Origin: an uncultured Bacteroidia bacterium
GTDB lineage: Bacteria; Bacteroidota; Bacteroidia; Bacteroidales; UBA932
NCBI GenBank assembly: GCA_902780935.1
Contig: CACZHP010000006.1
Span: 29,735-93,734 of the forward strand
DNA length: 64,000 bases
Direction of reading: 5' to 3'
Position 1 is the stretch's first letter. Every line of letters begins with the position of its first letter. Shown here piece by piece: positions 7,054 through 51,314 of this stretch. The position numbers and the translations under genes are program-made. The notes beneath the pieces are model-generated. The model was not told the origin of the DNA. It saw only the letters and a list, made by a program, of their open reading frames with translations, and did no database searches.

Positions 7054-7908
7054 TTACAGCCTGCAAGGGAGTGCGGATAGCTGGTACATGAGTGTCTTGG
7101 CGATACGCTCATGTCCTTTGGCGTTAGGGTGCAGCCTGTCTGTGTCAGGGTTGGCGAAATACCTGGCATGTTCCTCAATCATGGGATTCAGTCCGCATAG
7201 CGCGTTGAGGTCTATCACCGGCACGCTCCAAACGTTGGCCGTCTCCTTGATTGCCTCCACATAATCGTGGATATAAAGTCCCAGCCGGTTCGGATAAGAT
7301 TCCTCAGGTTGAATATTCCCCGCTCCAAATGTTGCGAAAGCCCTGTGGATTGGGGTGAGTAGGATTATCTGTTTCTCGGGGAACATCCTCTTCAGCTTGT
7401 CCATGGCAATGTTGATCCTGCCTTTCAACGTGTTCCCGTCCATTGAGGGAGTCCTTTTAATCTTCAGGAACTCAGTGGCGGGATAGCCGAGTGCGGCGGT
7501 CACCGTCTGAGGCGTCTCATCATACCACTCACCGAGAAGAACGTCAGATATGTAGTCGTTGGTCCCTATGAATATCATGATGGCGTCAAACTCATCCCCA
7601 TGCTCGGCTTTGAGCCTATCCGCCTGATCAGGAATATCATCCCACTGCCGTCCGTTGACCCCATAGACATAAGGATGGATCCCCAACCATTTCTGGAGAT
7701 ATCCCCAATAGTGATTGTCACTGAGGCCCGTCCAGTCATGATTGTCCGGATTCTTGGTGTCGCGGTTTCCGGGCACAACTCTGGCGTCGGTGATTGAATC
7801 TCCGAAAAACGCCACTCTGGCGCCCTGCCAAGGGTGGGTGGATGGCGTCTGTGCCACAGCTGCCGCGCAAAGCAGTGCCATGGACAGGAAAATGATTATC
7901 TTTCTCAT
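7054..7908 (-). CDS. Exported SGNH/GDSL hydrolase
   Basis: A 284-residue esterase-like protein with an N-terminal signal peptide (MRKIIIFLSMALLCAAAVAQ). The SGNH blocks are present: GDSITDA with nucleophile S38, the oxyanion Gly in GVNGRQW, FIGTNDY, and DRLHPNAKGHERIA carrying the Asp-His pair near the C terminus. Such enzymes deacylate carbohydrates or lipids outside the cytoplasm. The start codon overlaps the dsbD stop by four bases (7905-7908), so it is translated behind dsbD. The stop abuts the stop of the convergent phosphodiesterase gene. Substrate unknown. Confidence 0.88.
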   Translation of the reverse strand: MRKIIIFLSMALLCAAAVAQTPSTHPWQGARVAFFGDSITDARVVPGNRDTKNPDNHDWTGLSDNHYWGYLQKWLGIHPYVYGVNGRQWDDIPDQADRLKAEHGDEFDAIMIFIGTNDYISDVLLGEWYDETPQTVTAALGYPATEFLKIKRTPSMDGNTLKGRINIAMDKLKRMFPEKQIILLTPIHRAFATFGAGNIQPEESYPNRLGLYIHDYVEAIKETANVWSVPVIDLNALCGLNPMIEEHARYFANPDTDRLHPNAKGHERIAKTLMYQLSALPCRL

Positions 7909-10028
7909 ATCGCCTGATTATTAAACTTCTCTATACCAGACTTCAGGAACTCCACGAATCCGTCAACAGAGAGATCATATCCACGGACAGGAACAAGGAG
8001 ATCCCCGTCAGAACTGAGCAGGGCGTAGTTGGGTTGAGCGTTCACGTTGAACCTTTCCCTGACGATGTAGGAGTTGACCCGGCCTATGTCTTTCAGGGTT
8101 TTGCCTTCAGGGGTTGTGACCCAGTCCTCTTTGTCGAGTTTGGTCTTGTCGTCGTTGTACAGGAAGACCATAATATATTGGTTCTTCATTATTTCCTGCA
8201 CTTTCGGATCGGACCAGACCCTCTGCTCCATCTCGCGGCAGTTGACGCAGCCGTGGCCGGTTATGTCCACGAAAACAGGCTTGCCGGAAGCCTTTGAAGC
8301 GGCCAGGCCGTCCTCGATGGTGAAATAGCCATTGTACCCCATCGGCAGGCGCAGATTGTATTTCTCCGCGAACCCGCTCTCGCTGTCAGAGCCCAAGGCG
8401 GCGCCAATCGCCCCAGCTCCCTGCGCTTCGCGCCCTATCCGGGTAAATGTCCGCTGGGGCGATTCGCCACCTTGGGCGTAGGGCGAGTCAGCGTAGTTCC
8501 AGACGATAAAGTCCTGAGTCTCAATGGGTGGCAAGTAACCGGAGAGGGCCTTGAGAGGCGCTCCCCACATGCCGGGAATCATGTAAACCACAAAGGTGAA
8601 CACTCCGATTGCCAAGGCGAGCCTTGTCACGGAAAGGCTCTCTACAGGAGAGTCGTTCTTGAAACGGATCTTCCCGAGAAGGTAGAGCCCGAGAAGGCTG
8701 AATACAACGATCCAGATCGCCAGGTAGATCTCCCTGTCCAGTAGTCCCCAATGGTAGGTCTGGTCAGCCACGCTGAGGAACTTGAACCCCAGGGCGACCT
8801 CGATGAATCCGAGCACCACCTTGACGCTGTTAAGCCACGATCCGCTCTTCATCTTTTTTAGGAGCGAAGGGAACATCGCGAGGATCGTGAACGGCAGTGC
8901 GAAGGCCACGCTGAACGCCAGCATAGTGACCATAGGGGTCCAAAACTCGCCGGAAGTGGACTTGATCAGCACGGTCCCTACAATCGGTCCGGTGCAAGAG
9001 AATGACACCAGGACAAGGGTGAGGGCCATGAAGAAGATTCCCCCAAGGCCACCCTTTCCGGCCTTGGCGTCGCTCTTGTTGGCAAGGCTGGAAGGAAGCT
9101 CGATCTCGAACGCCCCGAAGAAGGAGGCGGCGAAGACCATGAACACGATGAAGAATATGATGTTCGGGAGCCAGTGTGTGGCGAGCCAGTTGAAAATGTC
9201 CGCCGTGACGGCATTGCCCCCAATCAGCCATGTCAGGCCGATGATTATGGATATCGGGACAGTGTAGAGCAGCACGATGAACAGCCCGTACATGAAGGCT
9301 TTGAAACGTCCTTCGGCGGGGGACTGGGACTGCTTCATGAAGAAGGAGATGGTCATGGGGACCATGGGGAACACGCAGGGGGTCAGCAGCATGGCGAGGC
9401 CCCAGAGGATCGCCTCGATGATCAGTCCCCACAGGCTCCCGCTCGCTTCGCCAGCAGCGGAAGACAACTCCCCTCTGCGGACATTTTCCCGGCTAGGGCG
9501 CGAAGCGTTGGGAGCGGAGGAGACGTTGTCTTCCGCCTTAGAGTTGCCGAGGGTGGCATGGTCCGGTGCGGCCTGTGCCGCACTTCCGTCACCTAGCGGC
9601 ACTGAGAACTCCCAGTGCTCGGGGGCGGCGCAGAATTGGTCGTTGCAGCCGCTCCAAGTGATTTCTCCGGAGACAGTGGCGTTCTCGTCATTGAGCTTGA
9701 CCTTCTGGGAGAAAACGGCCTCGTCGAAGAACACCTCATCATCCTTGAACATGGAGGGTTTCGTGACCTGCTTGAACTCCCCGACAGGGGAAAAGCCCTG
9801 GCCGGGTTCTAACTCCAGCGTGGTGGGATTGTACTGGTTGCCGGTGGTGTAGATATGCCAGCCCTTCTCGATGGTGGCGGTGAAGATCAGCTCATATTCA
9901 TTATCTCCAGCCGGCTTGGAAGACACCTTCCAGGTCGCGGTGGCATCCGGCGCTTGGCCGAAAGCGGCGGCGCTCCAAAGGAACGCTGCTGCAATCGATG
10001 TGATTATCGTTTTCAGATATTTTCTCAT
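7905..10028 (-). CDS. dsbD: Thiol:disulfide interchange protein DsbD, with two palindromic element insertions
   Basis: Carries reducing power from cytoplasmic thioredoxin across the inner membrane to periplasmic proteins. The 707-residue protein has a signal peptide, an N-terminal alpha domain (WSGCNDQFCAAPEHW), an eight-helix membrane core with redox cysteines in TPCVFPM and FSCTGPIVG, and a C-terminal thioredoxin domain with C594-V-N-C597. Two stretches look foreign: about residues 165-191, between the alpha and membrane domains, and about 518-546, between membrane core and thioredoxin domain. These are in-frame copies of a palindromic repeat described separately. Both lie in linkers, so the enzyme is probably functional. 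It follows rny after a 4-base gap. Confidence 0.93.
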   Translation of the reverse strand: MRKYLKTIITSIAAAFLWSAAAFGQAPDATATWKVSSKPAGDNEYELIFTATIEKGWHIYTTGNQYNPTTLELEPGQGFSPVGEFKQVTKPSMFKDDEVFFDEAVFSQKVKLNDENATVSGEITWSGCNDQFCAAPEHWEFSVPLGDGSAAQAAPDHATLGNSKAEDNVSSAPNASRPSRENVRRGELSSAAGEASGSLWGLIIEAILWGLAMLLTPCVFPMVPMTISFFMKQSQSPAEGRFKAFMYGLFIVLLYTVPISIIIGLTWLIGGNAVTADIFNWLATHWLPNIIFFIVFMVFAASFFGAFEIELPSSLANKSDAKAGKGGLGGIFFMALTLVLVSFSCTGPIVGTVLIKSTSGEFWTPMVTMLAFSVAFALPFTILAMFPSLLKKMKSGSWLNSVKVVLGFIEVALGFKFLSVADQTYHWGLLDREIYLAIWIVVFSLLGLYLLGKIRFKNDSPVESLSVTRLALAIGVFTFVVYMIPGMWGAPLKALSGYLPPIETQDFIVWNYADSPYAQGGESPQRTFTRIGREAQGAGAIGAALGSDSESGFAEKYNLRLPMGYNGYFTIEDGLAASKASGKPVFVDITGHGCVNCREMEQRVWSDPKVQEIMKNQYIMVFLYNDDKTKLDKEDWVTTPEGKTLKDIGRVNSYIVRERFNVNAQPNYALLSSDGDLLVPVRGYDLSVDGFVEFLKSGIEKFNNQAI
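8391..8477 (-). repeat. Palindromic core element, copy B (in dsbD)
   Basis: The 39-base core occupies 8416-8454 and reads GCGGACATTTACCCGG... to ...AGCGCAGGGAGC on the minus strand. It differs from copy A (16776-16814) at one base. Flanking arms 8391-8415 and 8455-8477 are inverted repeats of each other (gcccaagg...aatcgcccca) with one mismatch and a 2-base indel, and are unrelated to the arms of the other copies. It is translated in frame as RTFTRIGREAQGA. Confidence 0.85.
9457..9536 (+). repeat. Palindromic core element, copy C (in dsbD, reversed)
   Basis: The core at 9477-9515 lies on the plus strand, opposite to dsbD. It matches copy A at 34 and copy B at 35 of 39 positions. The arms are GCGGAAGACAAC (9457-9468) and its perfect complement at 9525-9536, with imperfect inner pairing. 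Despite the reversed orientation the insertion is open in the dsbD frame (peptide around NASRPSRENVRRGEL). Confidence 0.8.
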
Positions 10029-10032
10029 GGCG

Positions 10033-11568
10033 TTATTTGGCGTAGGAAACTGAACGGGTCTCTCGGATAACAGTGATCTTTACCTGTCCGGGATAAGTCA
10101 TCTCTTCCTGGATCTTCTGGGCGATGTCGGCCGACAGCCTGGCGGCCTGGTCGTCGCTCACTTCCTCGGCTCCGACTATTACCCTTAGCTCGCGTCCGGC
10201 TTGGATAGCGTAACTCTTTGTCACGCCGGGATATGCGGCGGCGAGATCCTCCATGCCCTTCAGACGCTTGATGTAGGACTCTATGACCTCCCTGCGGGCT
10301 CCGGGACGGGCTCCGGAGATGGCATCACCTATCATGACGATAGGAGATATGATAGAGGTCATCTCGATTTCCTCGTGGTGCGCTCCGATGGCGTTGCACA
10401 CGTCCGGTTTCTCCTTGTATTGCTCGGCCAGCTTCATGCCCAGGAGAGCGTGGGGCAGCTCGGGCTCTTCCTCGGACACTTTACCGATGTCATGGAGAAG
10501 TCCGGCCCTCTTAGCCACCTTCGGGTTGAGTCCCAGCTCGGAAGCCATGATGGCGCAGATGTTCGCGACCTCGCGGGAGTGCTGCAGGAGGTTCTGACCG
10601 TATGAGGAGCGGTATTTCATTCGGCCGATCATCCTGACGAGCTCGATGTTGAGCCCGTGGATGCCGAGGTCGATGCAAGTCCTCTTGCCAGTCTCAAGGA
10701 TCTCTTCCTCAAGCTGCTTCTGCACCTTCGCTACCACTTCCTCGATGCGGGCCGGATGGATCCTGCCGTCCACGACAAGCTGGTGAAGAGCGAGCCTGGC
10801 CACCTCCCTGCGGACAGGGTCGAAGGCGGAAAGAAGGATGGCGTCCGGAGTGTCGTCCACCACGATTTCGACACCTGTGGCGGCCTCAAGAGCCCTGATA
10901 TTACGGCCCTCGCGGCCGATTATGCGTCCCTTGATCTCATCATTCTCGATGGGGAAGGTCGTCACGGCGTTCTCGATGGCGGTCTCGGTGGCGGTCCTCT
11001 GTATGGTGTTGATCACTATTCGTTTAGCCTCTTTCGAAGCGTTCAGCCTGGCCTCGTCCATGGTGTCGTTGATGTAAGCCTGGGCCTCGGTCCTGGCCTC
11101 GGCTTTCATGTTTTCCATCAGGATGTTCTTGGCCTCCTGGGCGCTCATTCCGGCGATGGTCTCGAGCTGTTTGTTAGCCTGGGCGCTGAGTTTCTCATAC
11201 TCTTCGGCTTTCTTGGCGAGTTTCTCCTGCTGAGCCTGAAGGCTGTTCTTGGCGTTGTCAGCGTCGCGGAGCTTTTTCTGGAGCTCGGCACTCTGCTGGT
11301 TCAAGGTGTTCTCTTTCTGCTTGACGCGGCTCTCGGCCTCCCTGATCTGGTTGTTCTTCTCGTTGACGAAGCGCTCATGCTCGGCCTTGAGCTGTAGGAA
11401 CTTCTCCTTGGCCTGGTGGATCTTGTCGTTCTTGATCCCCTCGGCCTCTATCTCGGCCTTCGCTATTATCTCGTTCCTCCGTCCATTCAGAACCATCTTC
11501 TGGACCAGGATATAAACCCCAAGGGCAATTGCCGCCCCTATAAGGGCTCCTATAAGGTATGCTATCAT
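10033..11568 (-). CDS. rny: Ribonuclease Y
   Basis: A membrane-anchored endoribonuclease that starts mRNA decay. The 511-residue protein shows the full architecture: one N-terminal transmembrane helix (residues 1-25), a long charged coiled coil (about 30-200), a KH domain with [15 protein letters not shown], and an HD domain with [12 protein letters not shown] and [10 protein letters not shown] supplying the metal-binding His-Asp. Length is typical (about 510-520). It is separated from zapA by a 6S-like RNA candidate and two terminators, so it probably has its own promoter in 11569-11625, though no good consensus is visible there. dsbD follows after four bases. Confidence 0.97.
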
Positions 11569-11625
11569 TGTTTTGTTTTAAAATATTGTTAACGTTTTAT
11601 AATCAATTTGTCAGGGGCGTAACGC

Positions 11626-11663
11626 AAAAGACGGCCGCCGGTGTCGGAAACCGGTCGGTCGTC
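11626..11663 (-). terminator. Second terminator hairpin upstream of rny
   Basis: On the minus strand a stem of about 13 pairs with one bulge and a 7-base loop (arms 11630-11642 and 11650-11663) is followed by TTTTG. It lies just after the U-run of the structured RNA and would stop read-through from zapA. Confidence 0.6.
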
Positions 11664-11672
11664 TGAGATATT

Positions 11673-11857
11673 AAAAAAAGCCGTTAGTCGCTTGTCTTAA
11701 ATCTTAAAAAATAAGATTTGAGATCCGGTCCGGTTCGGACTTCCACCGTCGCGCGGGGCGCAATCCCGGAAGGTAACCTTGGCCTGCCCTTGCCGTCCTG
11801 AGTGTTCTCGGTTCAAATAGAACTTGTTGATAAAAGCACGTGGGACTAACGGCCGTC
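11673..11857 (-). ncRNA. Structured RNA downstream of zapA, 6S-like candidate
   Basis: On the minus strand GCCGTTAGTC (11844-11853) pairs perfectly with GACTAACGGC (11680-11689), closing a domain of about 175 nt that ends in seven U. Inside are a central arm (GGTT..CTTCC with GGAAG..AACC) and an A/U hairpin (AAATCTTA/TAAGATTT) near the 3' end. The 277-base region has no ORF. A long rod-like RNA directly behind zapA is the classical ssrS (6S) position, and that is the basis of the proposal. The 5' stem includes the zapA stop codon, so RNA and mRNA overlap. Identity as 6S is inferred and not proved. Confidence 0.55.
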
Positions 11858-12154
11858 TTTTTCAATATTCTTTAGGTATGACTCCACATCTTCCTGAAGC
11901 CCTTTCGCCTCCTCCCCGGCATCGGAGAGCCTCTTCTGGTAAGTCAGCCTGCTGACCGTCTCGTTGAGGGCGACGAAGGAGAGCTTGTCAGAGAGAGATT
12001 TGTTCGGGAACTTGGCGTCATAGGCGGTCAGTTTCTGGTTGATCGCCTCCGCGGCAAGCCTCATCAGGCGCTCCATCTCCGGAGAGGAAGCGACCAGAGG
12101 ATATTCATTGCCCGCGATTTTTATCTTTATGCTCTGTCCCATTCTAATTCTCAA
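11846..12154 (-). CDS. zapA: Cell division protein ZapA
   Basis: A 102-residue cytoplasmic FtsZ-ring stabiliser. It begins MRIRMGQSIKIKIAGNEYPLVA, an N-terminal beta element, followed by the family segment EMERLMRLAAEAINQKL and a C-terminal coiled coil rich in Leu, Glu and Lys that mediates tetramers. Length and order fit ZapA. It overlaps the upstream coiled-coil gene by 11 bases and is followed by the structured RNA, matching the zapA-ssrS arrangement of other bacteria. An internal ATG five codons in (MGQSIKI) is an equally plausible start. Confidence 0.88.
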   Translation of the reverse strand: MRIRMGQSIKIKIAGNEYPLVASSPEMERLMRLAAEAINQKLTAYDAKFPNKSLSDKLSFVALNETVSRLTYQKRLSDAGEEAKGLQEDVESYLKNIEKDGR

Positions 12155-12413
12155 GCAAGGAGATGCATTTGTCTATCTCCTTGATCAGTTTCTCGATCTT
12201 CTCTTTCGCTGCGGTCCTGTCGCCGGCGGCTCCGAAGGCTTCCGAAAGCTGCAGATTGTTAACCTGTTGCTCCAGATCACCGATCTGTTTCCTGCAGGAC
12301 TCGTTGTCGGCCTCGCGCTCGGCGAGGAGAGTCTGGAGCCTCACGCGCTCCGCTTTCTCCGCCTCGTAGAGTGAGATAAGCTTTTCTATGTCTTTTCTTA
12401 AACTTTCAAGCAT
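12144..12413 (-). CDS. Small coiled-coil protein, ZapB-like
   Basis: An 89-residue protein that is almost entirely predicted coiled coil: MLESLRKDIEKLISLYEAEK and later heptads such as IGDLEQQVNNLQLSE, ending KLIKEIDKCISLLEN. No enzymatic motif is present. Its size, composition and 11-base overlap with zapA suggest a division-ring accessory protein comparable to ZapB, but sequence similarity to ZapB itself cannot be claimed from reading alone. It is the first gene of the operon and has a canonical promoter just upstream. Confidence 0.7.
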   Translation of the reverse strand: MLESLRKDIEKLISLYEAEKAERVRLQTLLAEREADNESCRKQIGDLEQQVNNLQLSEAFGAAGDRTAAKEKIEKLIKEIDKCISLLEN

Positions 12414-12444
12414 ATCAACCAGGCCGTTTTTCTCCTGCTGAATG

Positions 12445-12476
12445 CAAATGTAGCAAATAATCTTTATTCGCGCAAA
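12445..12476 (-). promoter_or_regulatory. Bacteroidetes-type promoter of the zapB-like/zapA operon
   Basis: On the minus strand TTTG (12473-12476), 20 bases, then TACATTTG (12445-12452), a perfect match to the TTTG/TAnnTTTG consensus. The predicted transcription start is near 12438, about 25 bases before the ATG. Confidence 0.75.
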
Positions 12477-12481
12477 ATCAC

Positions 12482-12489
12482 TAAATTCG
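12482..12489 (+). promoter_or_regulatory. Probable -7 element of the CobW-family gene
   Basis: TAAATTCG fits TAnnTTTG with one change and lies 19 bases before the ATG at 12509. No clear -33 TTTG is visible at the right spacing. Confidence 0.45.
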
Positions 12490-12508
12490 CGTTAAAGAAA
12501 AAAATGCT

Positions 12509-13663
12509 ATGACTATTACAGTAGAGAACAAGGAGATACCGGTGCTGCTCCTTACCGGATATCTCGGAAGCGGCAAGACGACGTTGGTCAACAGGATCCT
12601 TTCCAACAAGAAAGGTATAAAATTCGCCGTGATAGTGAACGATATAGGAGAGGTGAATATCGATGCGGACCTGATCCAGAAGGGCGGTGTCGTCGGGCAG
12701 ACGGACGACAGCCTCGTGCCTCTTCAGAACGGATGTATCTGCTGCACCCTGAAGATGGATCTCGTGAACCAGATAGACGAGCTTTGCCGGATGAGGAAGT
12801 TCGACTATATCGTGATCGAGGCGAGCGGAATCTGCGAGCCGGCTCCCATAGCCCAGACGATATGCTCCATCCCCAAGTTGTTGCCGGAATATAACAGGGC
12901 AGCGACTCCTAAACTGGACGCCATCGTGACTGTCGTTGACGCTTTGAGGATGAAGGATGAGTTCGCGTCCGGAAAGGCGCTCAAGAGACCGGACATCGAG
13001 GAAGATGACCTGGAATCTCTTGTGATCCAGCAGATTGAGTTCTGCAATATCGTATTGCTCAACAAGGCTTCGGAGGTCTCCCCGGAAGAGCTTGGCGAAT
13101 TGAGGGAAATCGTGAAGGCCCTTAATCCACAGGCTACGATCCACGAGTGTGACTATGGCGAGATCGATCTTGGCCTGATTCTAAATACCGGGATGTTCGA
13201 CTTCGACAAAGTCGCCACATCGGCAGCCTGGATAGCCGCGATAGAGGGCGATGAGGAGGAAGAACTCCACAACGAAGAATCCGGCGAGGCTCTCGAGTAT
13301 AACATCAGCACTTACGTGTATTACCGTAGACCGGCCATGGACATCAACATGCTGGATTACATCGTCTCGAAGAAGTGGCCTTCCAACATCATCAGGGCGA
13401 AGGGGCTTTGCTATTTCGCCGATGAGCCTGACAAATGCTACCTCTTTGAGCAGTCCGGTTCCCAGAAGTCGATAAAGGAAGCGGGACTCTGGTTCGCCAC
13501 CATGCCGGCTGACCAGCTTCAGGAGATGATGCGCCGGGACAAGAACCTGCGCCGTGACTGGGATCCGAAATATGGGGACAGGATGGAGAAGATAGTCTTC
13601 ATCGGCCGCGACATCGATCCAAAGGCAATCGACGAGTTGTTCGATTCCTGCCTGGCTGAATAA
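12509..13663 (+). CDS. CobW/COG0523-family GTP-binding metal chaperone
   Basis: A 384-residue cytoplasmic GTPase of the G3E family. The P-loop is GYLGSGKTT (17-25), and GCICC (C76, C78, C79) is the family's metal-binding CxCC motif. VIVNDIGEVNID is switch I and VLLNKASEV is the NKxD-like base-recognition motif. The C-terminal CobW_C domain contains WPSNIIRAKGLCYF and the terminal RIVFIG-like strand (KIVFIGRDID). Members insert or traffic Zn2+, Co2+ or Fe; no cobalamin or nitrile hydratase gene is adjacent, so the metal is not determined. It stands alone, divergent from the zapA operon, and is followed by a terminator-like hairpin. Confidence 0.9.
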   Translation: MTITVENKEIPVLLLTGYLGSGKTTLVNRILSNKKGIKFAVIVNDIGEVNIDADLIQKGGVVGQTDDSLVPLQNGCICCTLKMDLVNQIDELCRMRKFDYIVIEASGICEPAPIAQTICSIPKLLPEYNRAATPKLDAIVTVVDALRMKDEFASGKALKRPDIEEDDLESLVIQQIEFCNIVLLNKASEVSPEELGELREIVKALNPQATIHECDYGEIDLGLILNTGMFDFDKVATSAAWIAAIEGDEEEELHNEESGEALEYNISTYVYYRRPAMDINMLDYIVSKKWPSNIIRAKGLCYFADEPDKCYLFEQSGSQKSIKEAGLWFATMPADQLQEMMRRDKNLRRDWDPKYGDRMEKIVFIGRDIDPKAIDELFDSCLAE

Positions 13664-13670
13664 TAAGCAA

Positions 13671-13752
13671 AACAAAAAGGTCGTTACCTCACGGCAGCGA
13701 CCTTTCCCACTTAATACAAACCTAATTTATGAATAAAACGTAAGATCTTCTA
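13671..13752 (-). ncRNA. Candidate free-standing small RNA (minus strand)
   Basis: Between two plus-strand genes the minus strand carries a promoter, an 80-base noncoding stretch and an intrinsic terminator. The terminator stem AAAGGTCG/CGACCTTT (13676-13683 with 13698-13705) is followed on the minus strand by TTTTTGTTTTG; on the plus strand there is no U-run, so the hairpin points leftward. No ORF of any size begins in it. The transcript would run from about 13752 to 13671. Function unknown; trans-acting or antisense to the 3' end of the CobW-family mRNA are both possible. Confidence 0.55.
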
Positions 13753-13758
13753 TCCAAG

Positions 13759-13787
13759 CAAATATAAGGCATTTTTTGTGCCGCAAA
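13759..13787 (-). promoter_or_regulatory. Promoter of the candidate small RNA
   Basis: On the minus strand TTTG (13784-13787), 17 bases, TATATTTG (13759-13766). Both elements match the Bacteroidetes consensus; the spacing is at the short end of the accepted range. Confidence 0.55.
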
Positions 13788-13857
13788 AATAGGGATGACC
13801 GCTCATTGAACTAAAGGATAAAACTTCTCTACTAAAAGCGATTATTTTTTATAAATC

Positions 13858-14625
13858 ATGAAAGCCAAACGACTCATAGCCATTCTGATTGCCTTGGTGG
13901 TCTGCTCTTTAGCCCAGGCTCGGAAAAAACCCCTGATCGGTGTTGTGCCGGGGTGTAGTGGAGAAATGAACCTGGTTCTCAGCCGTTCTTATACTGACGC
14001 TGTCGCCAGGGCCGGAGGAATCCCGGTGATTCTGCCACAGGTGGATGACGCTCTCACCGCAGCCGAGTACATCAGCCGTCTTGACGGAATATTGTTCACT
14101 GGAGGTGTCGACGTCGATCCATCCCGCTACGGCGAGACGGTTCTCAATGAATCGGTTGAGATAGATCTTCGGAGGGATTCCATCGAGTTTCTTTACGCGG
14201 AAGCCGCTCTCCTGAAAAGATTGCCCATCATGGCCATTTGTCGAGGTGAGCAGCTCATGAATGTCGTTCTGGGAGGATCACTGTACCAGGATCTTCCCAG
14301 CCAGAAGCCGGGGGATATTCCTCATCGCCAGAAAACTGATTCGAGGTATCCTACCCATTCCATCTCAGTCGCTCCGGGATCTATTTTGCATAGGGCTATG
14401 GGCGAGACCGAACTCATGGTCAACACTTCTCACCATCAGGCGGTTAAGCGCCCCTCCGACAAAGTTGTCGTGACCGCATATTCACCGGACGGGGTGGTCG
14501 AGGCGTACGAGAGCGGAATCAAGGGTCAGTGGATTCTCGCGGTGCAGTTCCATCCTGAGCAGCTGGTCCGCGCGGACGACAAGTGGCTCGCCTTGTTCAG
14601 GACTTTTGTCAAAGAATGCCGTTAG
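13858..14625 (+). CDS. Exported class I glutamine amidotransferase-like hydrolase (peptidase C26)
   Basis: A 255-residue protein with a signal peptide (MKAKRLIAILIALVVCSLAQA). The body is a PuuD-type gamma-glutamyl hydrolase fold: GILFTGGVDVDPSRYGE, nucleophile C128 in MAICRGEQLMNVVLGG, and the His-Glu of the triad in VQFHPEQL. PuuD enzymes hydrolyse gamma-glutamyl-GABA in the cytoplasm, but the signal peptide here implies a periplasmic substrate, perhaps a gamma-glutamyl peptide. The stop TAG is immediately followed by the ATG of the GH106 gene (zero-base gap), so the two are translated together although no metabolic link is obvious. Confidence 0.87.
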   Translation: MKAKRLIAILIALVVCSLAQARKKPLIGVVPGCSGEMNLVLSRSYTDAVARAGGIPVILPQVDDALTAAEYISRLDGILFTGGVDVDPSRYGETVLNESVEIDLRRDSIEFLYAEAALLKRLPIMAICRGEQLMNVVLGGSLYQDLPSQKPGDIPHRQKTDSRYPTHSISVAPGSILHRAMGETELMVNTSHHQAVKRPSDKVVVTAYSPDGVVEAYESGIKGQWILAVQFHPEQLVRADDKWLALFRTFVKECR

Positions 14626-17600
14626 ATGAGGCTCCTCCAGGTCTTTTTCTCCATCTTGTTGGCTATGATCCCATTACCTGGTCATAGCCAGGAACTCGTT
14701 GTCATTTTCAATACTGTCCCGAACCAGTATAAACCCCAGGTCTGGTGGCATTGGATGGATGGGAATGTCTCCCAGGAGGGGATAAGGAAGGATCTGGAAT
14801 GGATGAGACGCTCCGGCATTGGTGGGGTTCACCAGTTCGATGCCGGGGGTATTGATATGCCCAGGGCGGCCAAGGTGAAACTCCCATATCTGTCAGATGG
14901 ATGGAAGGACGCTTTCAGATATGCGGTCTCTCTGGCTGATTCTTTTGGAATGGATGTCACCATAGCGAGCGCTCCCGGCTGGAGTTCTACAGGCGGGACT
15001 TGGGTGAAGCCTGCGGACGCTGTCAAGAAACTGGAGTGGCGGTCTGTTGACGTGGATGGCGGGAAAGTCGAGGTCAGCCTTCCGGATCTCTACAGGGTCA
15101 CGGGACCTTATCAGGATTTCTTTCAAGGCAATGACAGGGTGCAGATCGCGCCCTATGGCAAGGATCTGTTCGTGCTTGCTGTCAAGAGATCCCCTTCGGA
15201 CCGTTCAATGGAAGAAATGGGGGCAGAGATCGAAGTCTCGGACACTTTGATTACCGTCAAATTGAACAGGAGATATTCCATCAAGGCGTTCACCCTGAAG
15301 TCGATGTCCATGGGAGGAAGGCCGAGGGAAGGGGAGCCTGTATGGCGTAATGTCCTGGAGTGCAGTGATGACGGAGTCTCATGGAAGGAGATACATAAAG
15401 TGTCCCCTTCGAGACTGCCCTATATGACAGAAGACATCAGCCCTGTCAGGGCCAGATGGTTCCGGGTCAGGGGAGAGAAACTTGAGGCGCTGGACCTGTT
15501 CACGACCCGGAAGGTGAACCATTCGGAGGAACTTGGCGGATTTAGTAATGTGCCAGATTTCAATAAGTTCCATATCCCTCCAGGGAGAAGATTTTTTAGC
15601 CGGGGACGCTATGTCAAAACCGGTGATGTCATCGACCTGACAGGGAAGATGACTCCTGACGGTCATCTTTCATGCTCCCTTCCGGGAGGCCGCTGGAGAA
15701 TATACCGTTTCGGATGGTCGATTACCGGAAAGGTCAACCATCCTGCCTCTCCCGAGGCCACCGGACTGGAGGTTGACAAACTTGACAAGGACGCCTGGAT
15801 GAGGTATTTCCGTCATTATCTCGACCTTTACAAAGATGCCTCCGGAGGCCGGCTTGGCGCAGAAGGGATAAGATACCTTCTAACTGACAGTTACGAGGCG
15901 GGTTCTTTCACATGGACCGCGAATCTCGCCCGTGAATTCAGGGACCGCAGGGGATATGACTTGCGTCCCTGGCTCCCCGTCCTGGCCGGAGAAATCATCG
16001 GCGGCCCCCGGGAGAGCGAGGGTTTCCTGTGGGACTGGAGGAGGACACTCGGTGAGCTGTTTGTGGAGAACTATCAGAGAATCAGGGATTTGGTGGAGGA
16101 ATATAACCTGGCGGGCTACTACTGTGAGACCCACGAGGGCGGAAGGGCATACGTCGGTGACGGCATGGATCCGAAACTCTCGGCTTCGATACCTATGGCC
16201 GCGATTTGGATGGAGAACACTCCGACAGGCTCCAGTATTCCTTCGTCCGTGGCCGACATCAGGGAGTCTGCTTCGGCCGCCCATATCTCCGGAGCAGGGA
16301 TAGTCGCCTCGGAGACTTTCTCTGTCAATGGTGACGAAGGAAGGGCATACACCTATTGCCCTGAGAATATGAAATATGTGGCTGATGTCGCTATGGCGGC
16401 GGGGGTCAACCGTTTCGTTATCCACGAGAGCGCCTCCCAGCCGAACGACTCGTACCTTCCCGGGCTTCAGCTTTTCCGTTATGGCCAGTGGCTTCACCGG
16501 AATGAGACTTGGGGAGAGTATGCCTGGGTGCTGATGGATTACCTCGGAAGGTCAAGCGCCTTGCTGAGGCAGGGGATTCCTGTCGCGGACATACTTCTAT
16601 ATTACGGTGAGGACAGCAATGTGACATCCTTGTACGGCGGAGGCACATTCGCCTCGTTGCCCCAAGTCCCTGCCGGTTATGAATATGATTTCGCAAATCC
16701 AACTGTCCTCAAGTCATATCTCGAGTCAGTTGTCAGTGTCGCCATTGCCTCCGGTGACGGCCGTAATGCGCCTGGGCGGACATTTACCCGGAGAGGGCGC
16801 GAAGCGCAGGGAGCCCAGGCGCCTTTTACGGCCGCACCGGACGAGGCTGAGACTTTGCTGGAAAGTGCTGGAGGGACGAGCTACAAGGTGTTGTGGCTGG
16901 ACGGGAATATCCGGACGATGTCTGCGGAGATGCTCCAGAAGATCAAGGAATATGCGGATGCCGGGGTGAGGATCTGCGGGGCTCCTCCGGAGCGACCAGC
17001 TGGTCTGAACGCGGACAAGAAAGCCTTCAGGAGAATCGTGAAAGACATTTGGGAAAGCGGCAGGGAGAATGTCTATGGATCGCTCGATGAAGCCCTGGAG
17101 GGCATCGCCCCAGACTGCGTCGCTGAGTTTGACGGTGTCCCCGCGGGCCCTGAGAAGTTCCGTTATGTCCACCGCTCGATGGAAGACGGCACACAGATAT
17201 ACTGGGTCAGGAACTTCTCAGGGAAAGACGCCATGGCGAGAATCAGCTTCAGGGACTCGGGTCCTTACGCCGCCCTCTTTAATCCTGAAAACGGGAAAAT
17301 ATTCACATTGGACACCTTCCTTCAAGACGGGCGGACTCTTGCGGATATCCCGATGCTATCCACTGACGCCTTCTTCGTGGTTTTCTCGCCCAATCCCTTC
17401 CCTTATCCGACCTTGCCCTCCTGTCGTCCTGAGCGAAGCGAAGGATCTTTCCCCATCCCCGGCCCTTGGACCGTAACCTTCGACCAGAAGGGCGGAGGTC
17501 AGGTGAGGGAGGTGTTCATAAGCCTGGGGTCCTGGACCGAGAGCGGCGATCCCGTGGTCAAGTATTTTTCAGGCACCGCAGTTTACCGTACTACCTTCTT

Positions 17601-17922
17601 CCTGGAATCCGGCTTCCCGGTTGGGGATGCCCCCATATACTTGGACCTCGGATCAGTGAAGAACATCGCTGAGGTCTTCGTCAACGGAAAACCTTGCGGC
17701 GTGTTGTGGAAAGCCCCTTTCAGAACCGAAGACCTCTCCGGGGCCCTGCGTCCTGGGAAGAACTCACTGGAAATCAAGGTGACGAACCTCTGGCGCAACC
17801 GCATGATAGGGGATGTCCAGCCTGGCGAGACCCGCCCTGTCACGGCCATCCGTCGCTTCTATAAAGCAGGCGACTCCCTCCTGCCTTCAGGCCTTCTTGG
17901 CCCTGTCGTGATCACTCGGTGA
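14626..17922 (+). CDS. GH106-like alpha-L-rhamnosidase carrying two inserted repeats
   Basis: A 1098-residue exported glycoside hydrolase (signal MRLLQVFFSILLAMIPLPGHSQ). The GH106 hallmark is PQVWWHWMDGNVSQEGIRKD followed by GIGGVHQFDAGG. Candidate catalytic acidic residues lie in LTDSYEAGS, YYCETHEGG and VASETFSVNGDEG, and FVIHESASQPND is also family-typical. The C-terminal part is a beta-sandwich. It removes alpha-L-rhamnose from pectin-type glycans. Residues about 709-739 come from an in-frame palindromic element (copy A) and SCRPERSEGSF near 934 from a second widespread repeat. The 3' end overlaps convergent tamB by 11 bases. Confidence 0.88.
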   Translation: MRLLQVFFSILLAMIPLPGHSQELVVIFNTVPNQYKPQVWWHWMDGNVSQEGIRKDLEWMRRSGIGGVHQFDAGGIDMPRAAKVKLPYLSDGWKDAFRYAVSLADSFGMDVTIASAPGWSSTGGTWVKPADAVKKLEWRSVDVDGGKVEVSLPDLYRVTGPYQDFFQGNDRVQIAPYGKDLFVLAVKRSPSDRSMEEMGAEIEVSDTLITVKLNRRYSIKAFTLKSMSMGGRPREGEPVWRNVLECSDDGVSWKEIHKVSPSRLPYMTEDISPVRARWFRVRGEKLEALDLFTTRKVNHSEELGGFSNVPDFNKFHIPPGRRFFSRGRYVKTGDVIDLTGKMTPDGHLSCSLPGGRWRIYRFGWSITGKVNHPASPEATGLEVDKLDKDAWMRYFRHYLDLYKDASGGRLGAEGIRYLLTDSYEAGSFTWTANLAREFRDRRGYDLRPWLPVLAGEIIGGPRESEGFLWDWRRTLGELFVENYQRIRDLVEEYNLAGYYCETHEGGRAYVGDGMDPKLSASIPMAAIWMENTPTGSSIPSSVADIRESASAAHISGAGIVASETFSVNGDEGRAYTYCPENMKYVADVAMAAGVNRFVIHESASQPNDSYLPGLQLFRYGQWLHRNETWGEYAWVLMDYLGRSSALLRQGIPVADILLYYGEDSNVTSLYGGGTFASLPQVPAGYEYDFANPTVLKSYLESVVSVAIASGDGRNAPGRTFTRRGREAQGAQAPFTAAPDEAETLLESAGGTSYKVLWLDGNIRTMSAEMLQKIKEYADAGVRICGAPPERPAGLNADKKAFRRIVKDIWESGRENVYGSLDEALEGIAPDCVAEFDGVPAGPEKFRYVHRSMEDGTQIYWVRNFSGKDAMARISFRDSGPYAALFNPENGKIFTLDTFLQDGRTLADIPMLSTDAFFVVFSPNPFPYPTLPSCRPERSEGSFPIPGPWTVTFDQKGGGQVREVFISLGSWTESGDPVVKYFSGTAVYRTTFFLESGFPVGDAPIYLDLGSVKNIAEVFVNGKPCGVLWKAPFRTEDLSGALRPGKNSLEIKVTNLWRNRMIGDVQPGETRPVTAIRRFYKAGDSLLPSGLLGPVVITR
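16751..16840 (+). repeat. Palindromic core element, copy A (in the GH106 gene)
   Basis: Core 16776-16814 starts GCGGACATTTACCCGG and contains GCGC-GAA-GCGC. Inner arms GCGCCTGG (16768-16775) and CCAGGCGC (16815-16822) are perfect. Outer arms 16751-16766 and 16826-16840 pair over 15 bases with one bulged A. Translated in frame as RTFTRRGREAQGA. Core shared with 8416-8454 (38/39) and 9477-9515 (34/39); arms are not shared. Confidence 0.87.
17423..17449 (+). repeat. Second interspersed repeat, encoding RPERSEGSF
   Basis: The stretch with CCTGAGCGAAGCGAAGG is translated in frame within the GH106 gene just before its C-terminal domain. Sequence of this type (GTCATCCTGAGCGAAGCGAAGG-like) is, from general knowledge, a repeat scattered through many bacterial and metagenomic genomes. 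A related GAGCGAAGCGA is found at 50465. Confidence 0.6.
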
Positions 17923-40154: not shown

Positions 40155-41870
40155 ATGAAAAGATTCTTACTTGTATTGTTAGCTCTCTCGATCTCTGTTT
40201 CCGGCGCTTTTGCCCAGAAGCAGGAGGTCCGCGACGTTGACATAACCCTCCACTTGTCGGACAAGGGTTCTGTCACTTTCGACGAGATGTGGGACATCAA
40301 TACGGGTTCCAACATCACTGAATGGTACCTTGTTCGGGAGAATCTCGGGGATATCATTATCCCGAACCTGACTGTCCTCGACGGAGTATCAGGCGCGAAG
40401 TTCGAGGATGTGGGGGAGTGGGATGTGAACAAGACCCTGGACGAGAAGGCCGGAAAATCCGGAATAGTCCATAAGGATGACGGGGTCGAGCTTTGCTGGG
40501 GAATAGCTCCGCGGGGCGACCGCAAGTTCTACGCCATCTACAGCATGATCAAGGCGATGAAGTCGCTGAACGACTACGACATGCTGCACCTGCAGGTAGT
40601 GTCTCCCGGATTGAGTTCTCCGCCGCAGCATGTCAGGATCACAGTGATGTCGAAAGATTTCCAGCTCGACACCACCAACACCCGGGCCTGGGGCTTCGGC
40701 TTCGAAGGAACCACGACCTTCACCGACAGCACGGTCGTGTTCGAGTCTTCCAAGCCTCTAAGGACAAACGATTCGGCGATTATCCTGCTGCGTTTCAACA
40801 AAGGGATGTTCCAGCCTCTGAGCGTTCAGGAAAGGGATTTCCAGGAGGCCTTGGATATCGCTCTGAAAGGGGCGAAGTTCGCGGATGATCCCGAGGAAGA
40901 GAATCCTTTCGCTGGAGCGATGGCGGGGCTCATGATTGTTTTATTACTGTTTTTTGCCTTTGTCAGACCGATCATCAAGATATTTAAGGGATCCCGGACC
41001 AAAGTTACCAATCGTGACAAGAAAAAACTGCTCGGCGGAGTCGCCCTGGACAAGGTGGACTGGTACAGGGACATTCCGATGGGCGGGGATCTTCAGATGG
41101 CTGATTATGTCCTGAGGAGGCTCGGAGAGAGGGGCTCCGCCAATAACCTCCCCCTGGCGGAGATCCTCAGGATGATCTACAAGGGCAACCTCGCTGTCAC
41201 CAGTGAGCTAAACGGACCGGTGAACATCTCTTTTGCCCGCCGGGATGGCCTGTCTGAAGTCAGCAAGGAATTCTACAATATGTTACATGAGGCCTCCGGA
41301 TCCGACAATATCCTTCAGGACAAGGAGTTCTCCAAGTGGGCCTCCAGTCATGAATCACGGGTTTACCAATGGTCCGAGACTTCCCGCACCAATGGTCTGG
41401 CAAAGTTCAGGGCCCAACGGTATTTGCGTAATGAGAAGTTTTCGAGTGAAGGACAGGCAGAGGCCCGGAAACTTATGGGACTGAGGAAGTTCCTCAATGA
41501 GTTCACACTTCTTAATCAGCATGAGACTATCGAGGCCAATCTCTGGAAGGAATATATGGTCTATGCGGCCCTTTTCGGGATAGCGGACAAGGTCGCGAAA
41601 CAACTGAAGGACATTGATCCGAAGTTCTTTGAGAAGACCTTCAGTTATGATTATCGGACATTCTCTTCCGTTCTCTCCAGCAGCCAGTCCATTTCAAGGG
41701 CTTTGGGTAACGCTATCACCAGCGCCTCACGGCCGGTTTATTATTCCTCGGGCGGCAGTTCCTACAGCAGCAGTTACTCCGGCCGCAGCAGGAGCGGAGG
41801 CGGCGGCTACACATCCCGCAGCGGAGGCGGCGGCTACAGCGGCGGCGGCCGAGGTGGTGGCGGAAGATAG
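40155..41870 (+). CDS. DUF2207-domain membrane protein with Gly/Ser-rich tail
   Basis: A 571-residue protein with a signal peptide (MKRFLLVLLALSISVSGAFAQ), an N-terminal DUF2207 beta domain (VRDVDITLHLSDKGSVTFDE), a transmembrane helix around residues 255-275 (AGLMIVLLLFFAFVRPIIKIF), and a cytoplasmic alpha region. It ends in a low-complexity tail of Ser/Gly/Arg/Tyr (SGGGGYTSRSGGGGYSGGG). DUF2207 proteins are widespread and of unknown function. It lies 15 bases after the GH99-like gene and 13 before the omega-amidase gene, so it is part of the operon with no clear biochemical reason. Confidence 0.85.
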   Translation: MKRFLLVLLALSISVSGAFAQKQEVRDVDITLHLSDKGSVTFDEMWDINTGSNITEWYLVRENLGDIIIPNLTVLDGVSGAKFEDVGEWDVNKTLDEKAGKSGIVHKDDGVELCWGIAPRGDRKFYAIYSMIKAMKSLNDYDMLHLQVVSPGLSSPPQHVRITVMSKDFQLDTTNTRAWGFGFEGTTTFTDSTVVFESSKPLRTNDSAIILLRFNKGMFQPLSVQERDFQEALDIALKGAKFADDPEEENPFAGAMAGLMIVLLLFFAFVRPIIKIFKGSRTKVTNRDKKKLLGGVALDKVDWYRDIPMGGDLQMADYVLRRLGERGSANNLPLAEILRMIYKGNLAVTSELNGPVNISFARRDGLSEVSKEFYNMLHEASGSDNILQDKEFSKWASSHESRVYQWSETSRTNGLAKFRAQRYLRNEKFSSEGQAEARKLMGLRKFLNEFTLLNQHETIEANLWKEYMVYAALFGIADKVAKQLKDIDPKFFEKTFSYDYRTFSSVLSSSQSISRALGNAITSASRPVYYSSGGSSYSSSYSGRSRSGGGGYTSRSGGGGYSGGGRGGGGR

Positions 41871-47391: not shown

Positions 47392-48422
47392 CACGAATTG
47401 ATTGGAAAAACCTGGGCTTTGACGCCTATCGTACCCGCACTGTGGTCCGCTCATGTTTCAGGAATGGGGAATGGTCCGCTCCTGAGGCGACAGAAGAATT
47501 CTCATTCACTTTCGACCCGTTCTCCCAGGTCCTCCATTACGCCATCTCCTGTTTCGAGGGGTTGAAGGCTTTCCGCCATAAGGACGGCAGTGTAGCCTTG
47601 TTCCGCCCGGACAGGAACGCCGCGAGGATGAGGATGACCGCGAATTACCTCGGCATGCCTTGTCCGGACGAGGACATGTTCATCAGGATGTGTGAGGAAT
47701 GTGTCAAAAAGAATCTGGAGTTCCTACCTCCGTACGGGTACGGGGCTTCAATGTATGTCCGTCCGCTTTTGATCGGTATCCATCCGCAGATGCAGCTTGT
47801 GCCTTATCCGGAGGCCTTGTTCGCGGTGATGTGCGCTCCTGTTGGCTCATATTACGGTGAGAGCATGAAGTCTTGCGCCGCCGTGATACCAGGGAACTAT
47901 GACCGGGCGGCTCCGAAGGGCTCCGGCAGGTACAAGATCGGGGCTAATTACGCCGCCACCTTCATGCCCTACAAGATTGCCCATGAGCAGGGCTACACCG
48001 AGCTCCTGTACTTGAATTCTTCCACAAGGGAATATATCGACGAGTTCGGATCGTCCAATTTCTTCGCCATCCAGGGCAACAAGTACATAACACCTCTTTC
48101 CGACAGCGTCCTGCCGTCCATCACCAACCTGACCCTCCAGGAGGTCGCCGCCGATCTCGGGATGGATGTGGAGAAACGTCCTGTCCGTCTTGAGGAACTG
48201 GGTTCCTTCGAAGAGGCCGCCGGATGCGGGACGGCCGTGGTGATCACACCTCTGTCCCATGTGGATGTGAAGCCTGTCCTTGAGGAACCGTTTGTCGGGA
48301 AATCATTCCGCTTCTTCCCTGACGGTGAGGTCGGGCCTGTCTCCCGGAAGCTGTATGCGAGGATCACTTCCATCCAAAACGGTGAGGCCGAGGACATCCA
48401 CGGCTGGTGCCACTTTATTTAG
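47388..48422 (+). CDS. ilvE: Branched-chain amino acid aminotransferase
   Basis: A PLP fold-type IV transaminase that performs the last step of leucine, isoleucine and valine synthesis. The 344-residue protein shows [21 protein letters not shown], the Schiff-base lysine K183 in [13 protein letters not shown], and [13 protein letters not shown] followed by [13 protein letters not shown] for cofactor phosphate binding. It closes the leu operon with an ATGA overlap to leuB. No ilvBNCD genes occur in the window, so valine and isoleucine precursors are made elsewhere. Confidence 0.94.
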
Positions 48423-48424
48423 CC

Positions 48425-48454
48425 ATTGAAACTGGCGGGAAATGGTTATCTTCG
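48425..48454 (+). promoter_or_regulatory. Probable promoter of the GH51 gene
   Basis: ATTG (48425-48428), 18 bases, TATCTTCG (48447-48454). Predicted start near 48461, nine bases before the ATG at 48470; this argues against the upstream ATG at 48407, which overlaps ilvE. Confidence 0.5.
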
Positions 48455-48469
48455 CGTAAAGTGAATATT

Positions 48470-50443
48470 ATGACGCGAAGATTCCTTTTTTCTGCCTGTT
48501 TGGCTCTGTTTTTCCATGCCGCCCTTCCGGCCCAGTCTTGCAAACTGGATATCGATCTTGGCAAGAAAGGCTCCCCGATCAATCCCACCCAGTACGGGAT
48601 ATTCTTCGAGGACATCAATTTCGCCGCTGACGGTGGCCTTTATGCGGAGCTCGTGAAGAACCGTTCTTTCGAGTTCCCTTCAAACCCACTTCAGGGGTGG
48701 AGAGTCTTCGGTAACGCGGCGGTCTTGGAAGATGGTCCGTTTGACCGTAACCCTCACTATGTCAGGCTCTCTGACCCAGGCCACCCTCATCGCTGGACCG
48801 GGCTTGAGAACGAGGGCTTCTTCGGGATCGGGGTTCGCTGCGGCGAGGAATACCGGTTCAGCGTCTGGGCCAGGGTTCCTGAAGGAGGGGAGTCCAGATT
48901 GAACGTGGAGATTTCCGACCCGGCATCCATTGAGGAGGACCATGGGCTTTGCGACGGGGAGTTGGTCGTATCAGGAGCTGACTGGAGGCAATATGAGCTG
49001 ATCCTCAAGCCTTCCAGGACTTTGGACAAGGCTGTGTTGAGGGTATTCCTTGACGGCGACAGGCTGGTGACTGATATCGAACATGTCTCCCTTTTCCCGG
49101 TTGACATCTGGAAAGGTCACCGCAACGGACTCAGGAAGGATCTCGCCCAGGCCTTGGCCGATCTCCATCCTGGGATATTCCGTTTCCCCGGTGGCTGTAT
49201 AGTGGAAGGCACGGAGGTGGAGTCCAGATATAACTGGAAGAATTCTGTCGGCCCTGTCGAGAACCGTCCGCTGAACTCCAACCGCTGGCAGTACTGCTTC
49301 CCGTACCGGCTTTATCCGGACTATTACCAAAGTTATGGCCTTGGCTATTTCGAGTTCTTCCTGCTTTCGGAAGAGATTGGCGCCGAGCCGCTTCCGATTC
49401 TGAGCTGCGGCCTGGCCTGCCAGTTCCAGAACGGGGAGGATGCCCATATTCCAGTGGATGAGCTCGGACCTTATATTCAGGACGCCCTTGACCTCATCGA
49501 GTTCGCCAACGGGCCTGTTACTTCCACATGGGGAAAGGTCCGGGCGGAGATGGGACACCCTGAGCCGTTCAATCTCAAATACATAGGCATCGGCAACGAG
49601 CAGTGGGGAACTCTTTATACCGAGCGGCTTGCGCCCTTTGTCAAGGCAATCCGGAAAGCATATCCCGACATCAAGATAGTCGGTTCGAGCGGTCCCGGTT
49701 CGGAAGGGGAGCAGTTTGACTTTCTTTGGCCGGAGATGCGCAGGATCGGGGTGGATCTCGTGGATGAGCATTTCTACCGTCCGTATGAGTGGTTCCTTTC
49801 CCAGGGGGCGAGGTATGACAATTACGACCGGAAAGGCCCGAAGGTGTTTGCCGGGGAATATGCTTGCCATGCCAGGGGAGCGAAATGGAATCACGCCTAC
49901 GCCGCCCTTCTCGAGGCCGCTTTCATGACTGGGATAGAACGCAATGCTGATGTGGTCCAGATGGCGACATATGCCCCGCTTTTCGCCCATGTCGAGGGAT
50001 GGCAGTGGAGACCAGACCTGATCTGGTTCGACAATTTGCGCTCGTTTCGCACCGCGAGCTGGCAAGTGCAGAGTTTGTATGGCCGGTTCAAGGGGAGGAA
50101 CACATTGAGTCTCAAGATGTCGGGAGCGAATGTGACTGGAGCGGAAGGGCAGGGAGGCTTGTTCGCGAGCGCGGTTTCTGATGGTTCCAGAATATACATA
50201 AAGGTGGCCAACACTTCGGAAGAGGAGCGGGATCTGGATTTCAATTTCGCCGGTTTGAAAAAGAAAGATGTCGTGCGGGCTGTCGAAGGCGTTCGGCTGG
50301 ACTGCTCGGACCGGATGGCAGAGAACTGCCTCGATGAGCCGGATAGGATAGTTCCTGTCTCTTTCGCATTCTCCGGTGAAGGCAAGACTATTTCCGCCTC
50401 CTTACCGCCCCTTTCTTTCTCCGTGTTCGTTCTGGAGAAGTAA
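48470..50443 (+). CDS. GH51 alpha-L-arabinofuranosidase
   Basis: A 657-residue exported enzyme (signal MTRRFLFSACLALFFHAALPAQS) that removes alpha-L-arabinofuranose from arabinan, arabinoxylan or pectin side chains. The catalytic acid is E377 in GIGNEQWGTLYT and the nucleophile E463 in KVFAGEYACHA. LHPGIFRFPGGCIVEG and NPTQYGIFFEDINFAADGG at the mature N terminus are family-typical, with a beta-sandwich inserted after it (about 70-200) and another at the C terminus. It lies after the leu operon but has its own promoter; the association with leucine synthesis is probably positional only. Confidence 0.93.
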   Translation: MTRRFLFSACLALFFHAALPAQSCKLDIDLGKKGSPINPTQYGIFFEDINFAADGGLYAELVKNRSFEFPSNPLQGWRVFGNAAVLEDGPFDRNPHYVRLSDPGHPHRWTGLENEGFFGIGVRCGEEYRFSVWARVPEGGESRLNVEISDPASIEEDHGLCDGELVVSGADWRQYELILKPSRTLDKAVLRVFLDGDRLVTDIEHVSLFPVDIWKGHRNGLRKDLAQALADLHPGIFRFPGGCIVEGTEVESRYNWKNSVGPVENRPLNSNRWQYCFPYRLYPDYYQSYGLGYFEFFLLSEEIGAEPLPILSCGLACQFQNGEDAHIPVDELGPYIQDALDLIEFANGPVTSTWGKVRAEMGHPEPFNLKYIGIGNEQWGTLYTERLAPFVKAIRKAYPDIKIVGSSGPGSEGEQFDFLWPEMRRIGVDLVDEHFYRPYEWFLSQGARYDNYDRKGPKVFAGEYACHARGAKWNHAYAALLEAAFMTGIERNADVVQMATYAPLFAHVEGWQWRPDLIWFDNLRSFRTASWQVQSLYGRFKGRNTLSLKMSGANVTGAEGQGGLFASAVSDGSRIYIKVANTSEEERDLDFNFAGLKKKDVVRAVEGVRLDCSDRMAENCLDEPDRIVPVSFAFSGEGKTISASLPPLSFSVFVLEK

Positions 50444-50453: not shown

Positions 50454-50505
50454 CCGCTCATTCCGAGCGAAGCGAGTTCAGGGGGTTTGGGGGGAACGCC
50501 CCCCA
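50454..50505. repeat. GAGCGAAGCGA-containing repeat with G6/C6 hairpin
   Basis: ATTCCGAGCGAAGCGAG at 50459-50475 resembles the repeat at 17423-17449. It is followed by a hairpin GGGGGG-AACG-CCCCCC (50489-50504). Neither side has a U-run, so it is not a terminator. Non-coding here. Confidence 0.5.
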
Positions 50506-51158: not shown

Positions 51159-51259
51159 ATAATTTTAAATTTCTATTTTAGTTTTCAACCCCGTCCTTTC
51201 GGGCGGACATCTCAAGAACAGTCAATTCCCGCGCCAATGCCAAAAAGTCCATTAAAAGT

Positions 51260-51314
51260 GGACATTTTGTCATAACATGCTGACTATTTGTCACTTACGT
51301 CTGACAAAATGTCC
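51260..51314. promoter_or_regulatory. Three operator-like 13-mers with exact 21-base period
   Basis: Sites 51260-51272 (minus: TGACAAAATGTCC), 51281-51293 (TGACTATTTGTCA) and 51302-51314 (TGACAAAATGTCC) begin at intervals of exactly 21 bases. The outer two form a 14-base perfect inverted repeat (TGGACATTTTGTCA / TGACAAAATGTCCA). Two helical turns between centres suits cooperative binding of one regulator. They lie 116-170 bases upstream of hsp20 and about 125 upstream of the barrel gene. Confidence 0.7.

Follow-up and report, generated by a model that had tools for sequence, protein, structure and literature searches.

What kind of element keeps its inside constant from one copy to the next while its ends vary and remain complementary to each other, and how does such an element come to lie within protein-coding genes? 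The question is raised by three hairpin-forming segments in the stretch of 64,000 nucleotides from an uncultured Bacteroidia bacterium that was analyzed here (the window). A preliminary description of this DNA had reported three 39-base cores that agree with each other at 38, 34 and 35 positions and are flanked by inverted repeats. The same numbers were obtained here: the core at 16776 matches that at 8416 at 38/39 positions and that at 9477 at 34/39, while 8416 and 9477 agree at 35/39 (A, B and C of the description correspond to 16776, 8416 and 9477), and arm pairing is seen at all three copies (Table 1). The answer that we consider probable, with modest confidence, is that the three segments belong to non-autonomous, in-frame hairpin mobile elements of the kind of the Rickettsia palindromic elements (RPE), whose tip is conserved and whose stem is free to vary as long as it stays paired, residing in one rumen-type genus of Bacteroidales.

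Three copies in the window and a family in one genus

With up to three mismatches allowed, a 31-base core pattern has exactly three matches in the window, where 0.00 were expected and none was found in 100 shuffles. DNA folding of the three copies gives z scores of -5.1, -3.1 and -6.3, and none of 200 shuffles of each copy was equally stable. The copies reside in two genes, and all of them are in frame: the DsbD-like open reading frame (ORF) is uninterrupted by copies 1 and 2 and the GH106-like ORF by copy 3, copy 2 being in frame but antisense to the DsbD-like gene.

Table 1. Location in the window of the hairpin copies, their host genes and a further short repeat
Feature	Position	Strand	Remarks
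Copy 1, hairpin element	8391..8477	-	core 8416-8454; arms ~8391-8417 and ~8453-8477
Copy 2, hairpin element	9457..9537	+	core 9477-9515; arms ~9457-9476 and ~9515-9537
Copy 3, hairpin element	16750..16841	+	core 16776-16814; arms ~16750-16776 and ~16813-16841
DsbD-like thiol:disulfide interchange protein gene	7905..10028	-	707 aa; houses copies 1 and 2
GH106 alpha-L-rhamnosidase-like protein gene	14626..17922	+	1098 aa; houses copy 3
Short palindromic repeat TCCT-GAGCGAAGCGA-AGGA	17427..17445	+	in frame in the GH106-like gene

Other repeats occur in the window. The short palindromic GAGCGAAGCGA has 30 distinct occurrences in the loci collected, and its four stem bases pair in 22 of them (TCCT/AGGA in 11, TTCT/AGAA in 8, CCCT/AGGG in 2 and GTCT/AGAC in 1); a further occurrence lies at 50465-50475, just past the end of the ORF at 48407-50443. 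An inverted repeat, AAAGTGGACATTTTGTCA and TGACAAAATGTCCATTTT, with 29 bases separating the arms, is found at 51255-51319, and a 27-base repeat starting with AGCGGAGGCGGCGGCTAC is present in two tandem copies at 41793-41846.

The preliminary description had proposed a search for the core in the source genome and its relatives. With a 26-base core pattern, 15 copies were recovered in the own genome (G000) and 24 in the relative G129, the reversed-pattern control giving 0. In a family-level sample of 199 genomes the core was present in 2/19 genomes of this genus and in 0/180 of other genera, and in a larger sample of the genus in 10/151 genomes; these 151 are themselves a sample of a larger genus, and thresholds of two to three mismatches overlook decayed copies. 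A scan of named genome contigs yielded at least 111 stretches with the core (loci L060-L170). Among the matches listed, all 80 titles are of Bacteroidales or Bacteroidia metagenome-assembled genomes, and the sources, where named, are the rumen, omasum and abomasum of goat, deer and water buffalo. Viral contigs scanned with a 30-base pattern gave 0 matches. The family had not been recognized as a described one, in agreement with the present searches: no Rfam family matched five copy-bearing loci (15145 bases in total, at E values up to 1), the core sequence appears in 0 open-licence papers (preprints being outside this scope), and no title was found that names the family.

For the analyses of structure, 153 distinct copies were extracted, all chosen by their core; those with flanks that were short or contained N were dropped. 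This total counts related and orthologous copies separately, and it retains at least one apparent chance match (index 150, L168, minus strand). Copies with an arm score below 8 were excluded from the mismatch counts, from the 71 site representatives and from the tag test given below, and the site clusters exclude copies outside ORFs of 150 aa.

A constant tip between divergent, paired arms

The constant tip has the consensus GNCGA(G/C)-CATTTACCCGGNNAGGGCGCGAAGCG-CAG(C/G)GAGNC. The base before CATTT co-varies with the fourth base after AGCG, and the tip takes forms such as GCGAG with CAGCGAG (26 copies), GCGAC with CAGGGAG (18) and GCGGA with CAGGGAG (18); we read this part of the tip as a C-G pair, two opposed GA, and then G-C or C-G at the co-varying base. 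All three window copies are predicted to form a small hairpin over GCGCGAAGCGC inside the tip, and a CCC/GGG hairpin is predicted for copies 1 and 3, being absent from the prediction for copy 2. GCGAAGC is an unusually stable DNA mini-hairpin. From arm to arm, the elements have a median length of 84 bp, with 78-92 bp as the 5-95% range.

The arms pair within the copy in 130/153 cases, compared with 7.2% of 1500 crossed arms, which bears out the earlier view of a repeat family with a fixed inside and varying yet complementary ends. At single stem positions all four types of Watson-Crick pair are found: position -7 is paired in 66 of the 71 site representatives (23.3 expected), and positions -12 and -13 in 61/71 each (19.5 and 18.1 expected). 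The departure from expectation is smaller at the remaining positions, such as -10, where 55/71 are paired and 42.5 expected. That the arms are also unrelated between copies, as had been stated, is too strong, and they are better called divergent. Left arms of different sites among the 71 representatives are 37.5% identical in register, versus 24-27% when slid outward by 4-12 bases, and the inner arm of the 16776 type is matched at 11/16 bases or more by 18/153 copies. Arm sequences common to the copies, which had been named as an observation that would contradict the description, are thus found in part: inner arms are common to these 18 copies, but their outer pairs are site-specific and still paired (5.8 vs 3.8 of 8). 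In addition, two own-genome loci separated by 2.7 kb (L008 and L009) have the palindrome in common as far as its ends GCTCC..GGAGC, and beyond these ends no similarity is visible by eye. Since the palindrome is shared and the flanks are dissimilar, arms can travel with the element. Two kinds of irregular copies were also seen. L067, L069, L071, L132, L156 and L165 carry head-to-tail repeats of left arm and tip followed by a single right arm, and in L044 (G246) the two arms are mismatched to each other (score 3.4), as in a recombinant or an assembly chimera.

It might be argued that this is an ordinary family of in-frame palindromes of the known type, with old and drifting stems, and that the constant tip is mainly an artefact of the search. 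In-frame palindromic inserts are indeed already described in the available part of PMC3733652, all 153 copies were selected by the core, so that its constancy is inflated, and in the stems 2686 Watson-Crick positions are accompanied by 187 mismatches and 323 gap positions. Nevertheless, drift alone would not maintain 61-66 of 71 pairs at positions that use all four pair types. The tip is, moreover, bimodal in orthologous loci that were fetched by protein similarity or place and not by the core: it lies 0-2 substitutions from the consensus or is unrecognizable (at least 8), and L175, with 5 substitutions, is the sole intermediate among 264 non-independent orthologous pairs. This pattern persists where the arms are only 20-60% identical, although these ungapped identities are understated where arms differ by indels. 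Likewise, arms and tip of L056 and L217 are identical at a flank identity of 83.8%, which is not predicted by drift alone. Rickettsial elements, according to the available part of PMC6649704, lose repeat identity over time, and the identical build is seen again with a second tip. An ordinary drifting family is therefore an unlikely explanation. The tip is either constrained whatever its reading frame, or copies are often replaced and lost through deletion.

The second hairpin family, with the tip GCGTCCATTCTCGCTYCGCTGCGGCTGAGT, was present in 10/10 genus genomes tested, at 5 to 27 places in each. In the 35 copies extracted the arms are paired in 33 (crossed arms, 14.2%), and 31 of these 35 copies are located in ORFs of 150 aa or more. 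A constant tip with a variable, paired stem is thus common to at least two families in the genus. Copies of the second family were noticed at L251-L280, L040, L077 and L223, and the family also occurs in genomes that have few copies of the first family or none.

Reading frames, host genes and orthologous sites

The elements dwell in frame in ordinary proteins, and often the insertion point is a variable linker. Of the 153 copies, 135 are contained in ORFs of 150 aa or more, 10 in shorter ORFs and 8 in no ORF. The host proteins belong to diverse families (a Pfam hit at 1e-8 or better was obtained for 17 of the 20 tested), and the core is read in both orientations and in five of the six frames: 11 copies in fwd0, 24 in fwd1, 28 in fwd2, 44 in rev0, 28 in rev2 and 0 in rev1. 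All 11 fwd0 copies carry CAG where the usual tip reads TAG, compared with 8 CAG and 109 TAG among the 124 copies in other frames; this result arises partly by construction, because an ORF bearing TAG would not count as open.

The hairpin might be selected by the host as a DNA or RNA signal and not be a passenger at all, a reading that is quite improbable as a whole. The bimodal tip and the identity of L056 and L217 would suit it, and so would the mismatches on the core strand, where G-T is weakly in excess of A-C (68 vs 48 in 130 copies, 63 vs 40 in those residing in ORFs). This excess is a hint only of a single-stranded nucleic acid role of the core strand, as related copies are counted repeatedly. 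Against such selection, 141/151 genus genomes are without the core at the threshold used, the host genes are unrelated to one another, and the same linkers are empty or filled with other repeats in close relatives. The strong selection for a hairpin that had been suggested earlier may still apply in general terms, but is unlikely at the level of mRNA, where the orientation relative to the gene is balanced (63 vs 72 copies) and G-U mismatches (46) do not exceed A-C mismatches (57). An mRNA hairpin was rejected on these two grounds. A conserved protein segment was rejected as well, since the same linker may be empty or carry another repeat in close relatives.

The DsbD gene, compared in 30 genus genomes including the own one, illustrates this variation. 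Both insertion points are in variable linkers. At site 1 the tip has the same orientation in G000, G352 and G268, is decayed in G342, and in G129 and G240 is reversed and flanked by other arms; at site 2 the tip is present in G000 and G129, and G240, G215 and G401 have a short site that lacks the core. Other linkers of close relatives (L214, L208, L213, L207, L218, L215) are empty, or they hold half an element or a palindromic repeat of another kind. It had also been considered that the three cores might be the only copies and align with conserved protein sequence; with 15 copies in the own genome and linkers that are empty in relatives, this is not what was found. In close relatives (L207, L213, L215 and L218), other palindromic repeats occupy gene positions that carry a first-family element in the own genome, which gives some linkers the look of common landing places. 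In L236, an own-genome orthologue of the L149 insertion, the tip is gone and the palindrome appears by eye to be turned round.

The two orientations coexist at 16 of the 31 sites that have copies in at least two places. For same-orientation orthologous pairs the median arm score is 12.0 (97 pairs; background 5.5), and 59% of them exceed the background 95th percentile; for opposite-orientation pairs the median is 6.0 (53 pairs; background 5.2), and 21% exceed it. The best opposite pair lies above the background 95th percentile at nine of the 16 mixed sites, a number inflated by taking the best of several, and below it at seven. Among the nine, L009/L092 is uninformative, as both bear shared subfamily arms. 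At some mixed-orientation sites the element looks flipped, and at others it looks replaced or independently inserted; the seven without arm similarity across orientations fit separate insertion or replacement better than flipping.

The preliminary description had further suggested an insertion process in which an inverted copy of the target is made around a constant core, so that the arms would be local sequence and its reverse complement, and had proposed that orthologues be compared for the target boundaries. This is very improbable: the site-specific outer pairs of the 18 copies with related inner arms, which the idea also predicts, and the resemblance by eye of eight bases between the outer left arm of copy 2, GGCGGAAG, and GGAGGAAG at the core-less site of G240 are in its favour, but in 15 comparisons with core-less orthologous sites, a test whose power is limited by linker differences beyond the palindrome, the outer arms matched the site at 6.47 of 10 bases and the inner arms at 6.60, no improvement over arms from other sites (6.53, sd 0.84), while L008 and L009 have the whole palindrome in common and arms of different sites retain similarity in register. 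The comparison of orthologues resolved no clean insertion boundary, and a direct repeat of at least 4 bases at the estimated arm ends, as expected of a target-site duplication, was present in 1/130 copies, versus 1.6% of crossed flanks. For this reason, movement is inferred from copy number and from presence and absence.

Relation to described elements and a possible mode of movement

The terminal repeats of MITEs are shared between copies. In the present family, in contrast, the inside is common and the ends differ, with the 37.5% identity in register and the 18/153 shared inner arms already given, and no target duplication is seen; both are small, multicopy inverted-repeat elements without coding capacity (for MITEs, PMC10969869, in part). 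Closer by description are the RPE, of about 150 bp, with ten families and 44 occurrences in genes of R. conorii, which are likewise short palindromes in frame in unrelated genes (PMC10969869, in part). However, the RPE are said to encode a conserved peptide (same source), whereas the present tip occurs in either orientation and in five reading frames; and where the RPE reportedly lose repeat identity over time (PMC6649704, in part), the present stems diverge yet stay paired. What is new with respect to the RPE is the absence of a conserved peptide and the combination of a constant tip with divergent yet paired stems. The GTAG- and CGTC-tagged REPs are also multicopy palindromes, some of them within ORFs, and CGTC-1 and CGTC-4 correspond to RPE-6 and RPE-4; as far as the available part of PMC3733652 goes, described REPs are mostly intergenic and their stems usually have 6-9 bp plus a terminal tag, whereas the present elements are mostly in ORFs and have arms of 22.7 nt on average with no tag outside. 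Within 10 nt outside either arm, 0-3 of 130 copies have GTAG or its complement and 2-6 have CGTC or its complement. In nematomorph mitochondria, coding inverted repeats have arms that evolve in concert, and template switching has been suggested for them; no multicopy family with a constant tip is described there as far as seen (PMC6649704, in part). The PARCELs, too, are dyad-symmetric coding repeats of variable sequence, but they form tandem 25-residue repeats with a conserved amphipathic pattern (PMC2996958, in part), while the present elements are dispersed single inserts with no fixed frame.

Among the genes sought as a source of mobility, the Y1 transposases, no candidate for a mobilizing enzyme was identified. 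A Y1 transposase match was found in 15/18 genomes of the first set, and PF01797 in 110/151 genus genomes, including nine of the ten core-positive ones, the exception being G334. These genes do not track the element, and there is no useful association. The tip of the first family was absent from ten Y1 loci of 2.2-3.3 kb, and a RAYT was rejected as the mobilizer on these two grounds, the presence of Y1 in 110/151 genomes and the absence of the tip near the ten loci. One own-genome locus (L223, G000:C17) has two other palindromic repeat families upstream of a Y1 transposase gene.

If the copies are mobile in-frame hairpins, as we consider probable, their history could be pictured as follows. The elements would move by means of an enzyme acting in trans that recognizes the tip, probably on hairpin, single-stranded DNA. 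Integron attC sites are a case in which single-stranded hairpins are recognized structurally and the stem sequence is variable. A new copy would bring its own stem along, and the survivors would be only those insertions that preserve the frame in a tolerant linker. Afterwards, template switching between the arms would renew their pairing and sometimes invert the tip. Such switching between inverted repeats is reported to homogenize arms and invert spacers in yeast genes (PMC8604942, in part), and in rRNA genes to lead to compensatory changes and loop inversions (PMC8794818, in part). It seems the likeliest cause of the persistent pairing. More tentatively, and as a possibility that we would rather doubt than assert, the two tip families might be members of one class of mobile hairpins, comprising two or more tip families in this one genus, whose machinery reads only the tip and whose stem is free in sequence and needs only to pair, yielding linker inserts of about 26-31 residues.

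Most of what is known of in-frame palindromic inserts comes from Rickettsia, and the literature examined, in the parts available, holds no account of their movement. The present family spans several species of one large genus, in which the same linker can be found empty, occupied, turned round or decayed. Such a natural series suits the questions of how these elements move, how a stem stays paired within coding sequence and how proteins gain segments, and if the tip is the recognized part, it gives a defined bait for the enzyme.
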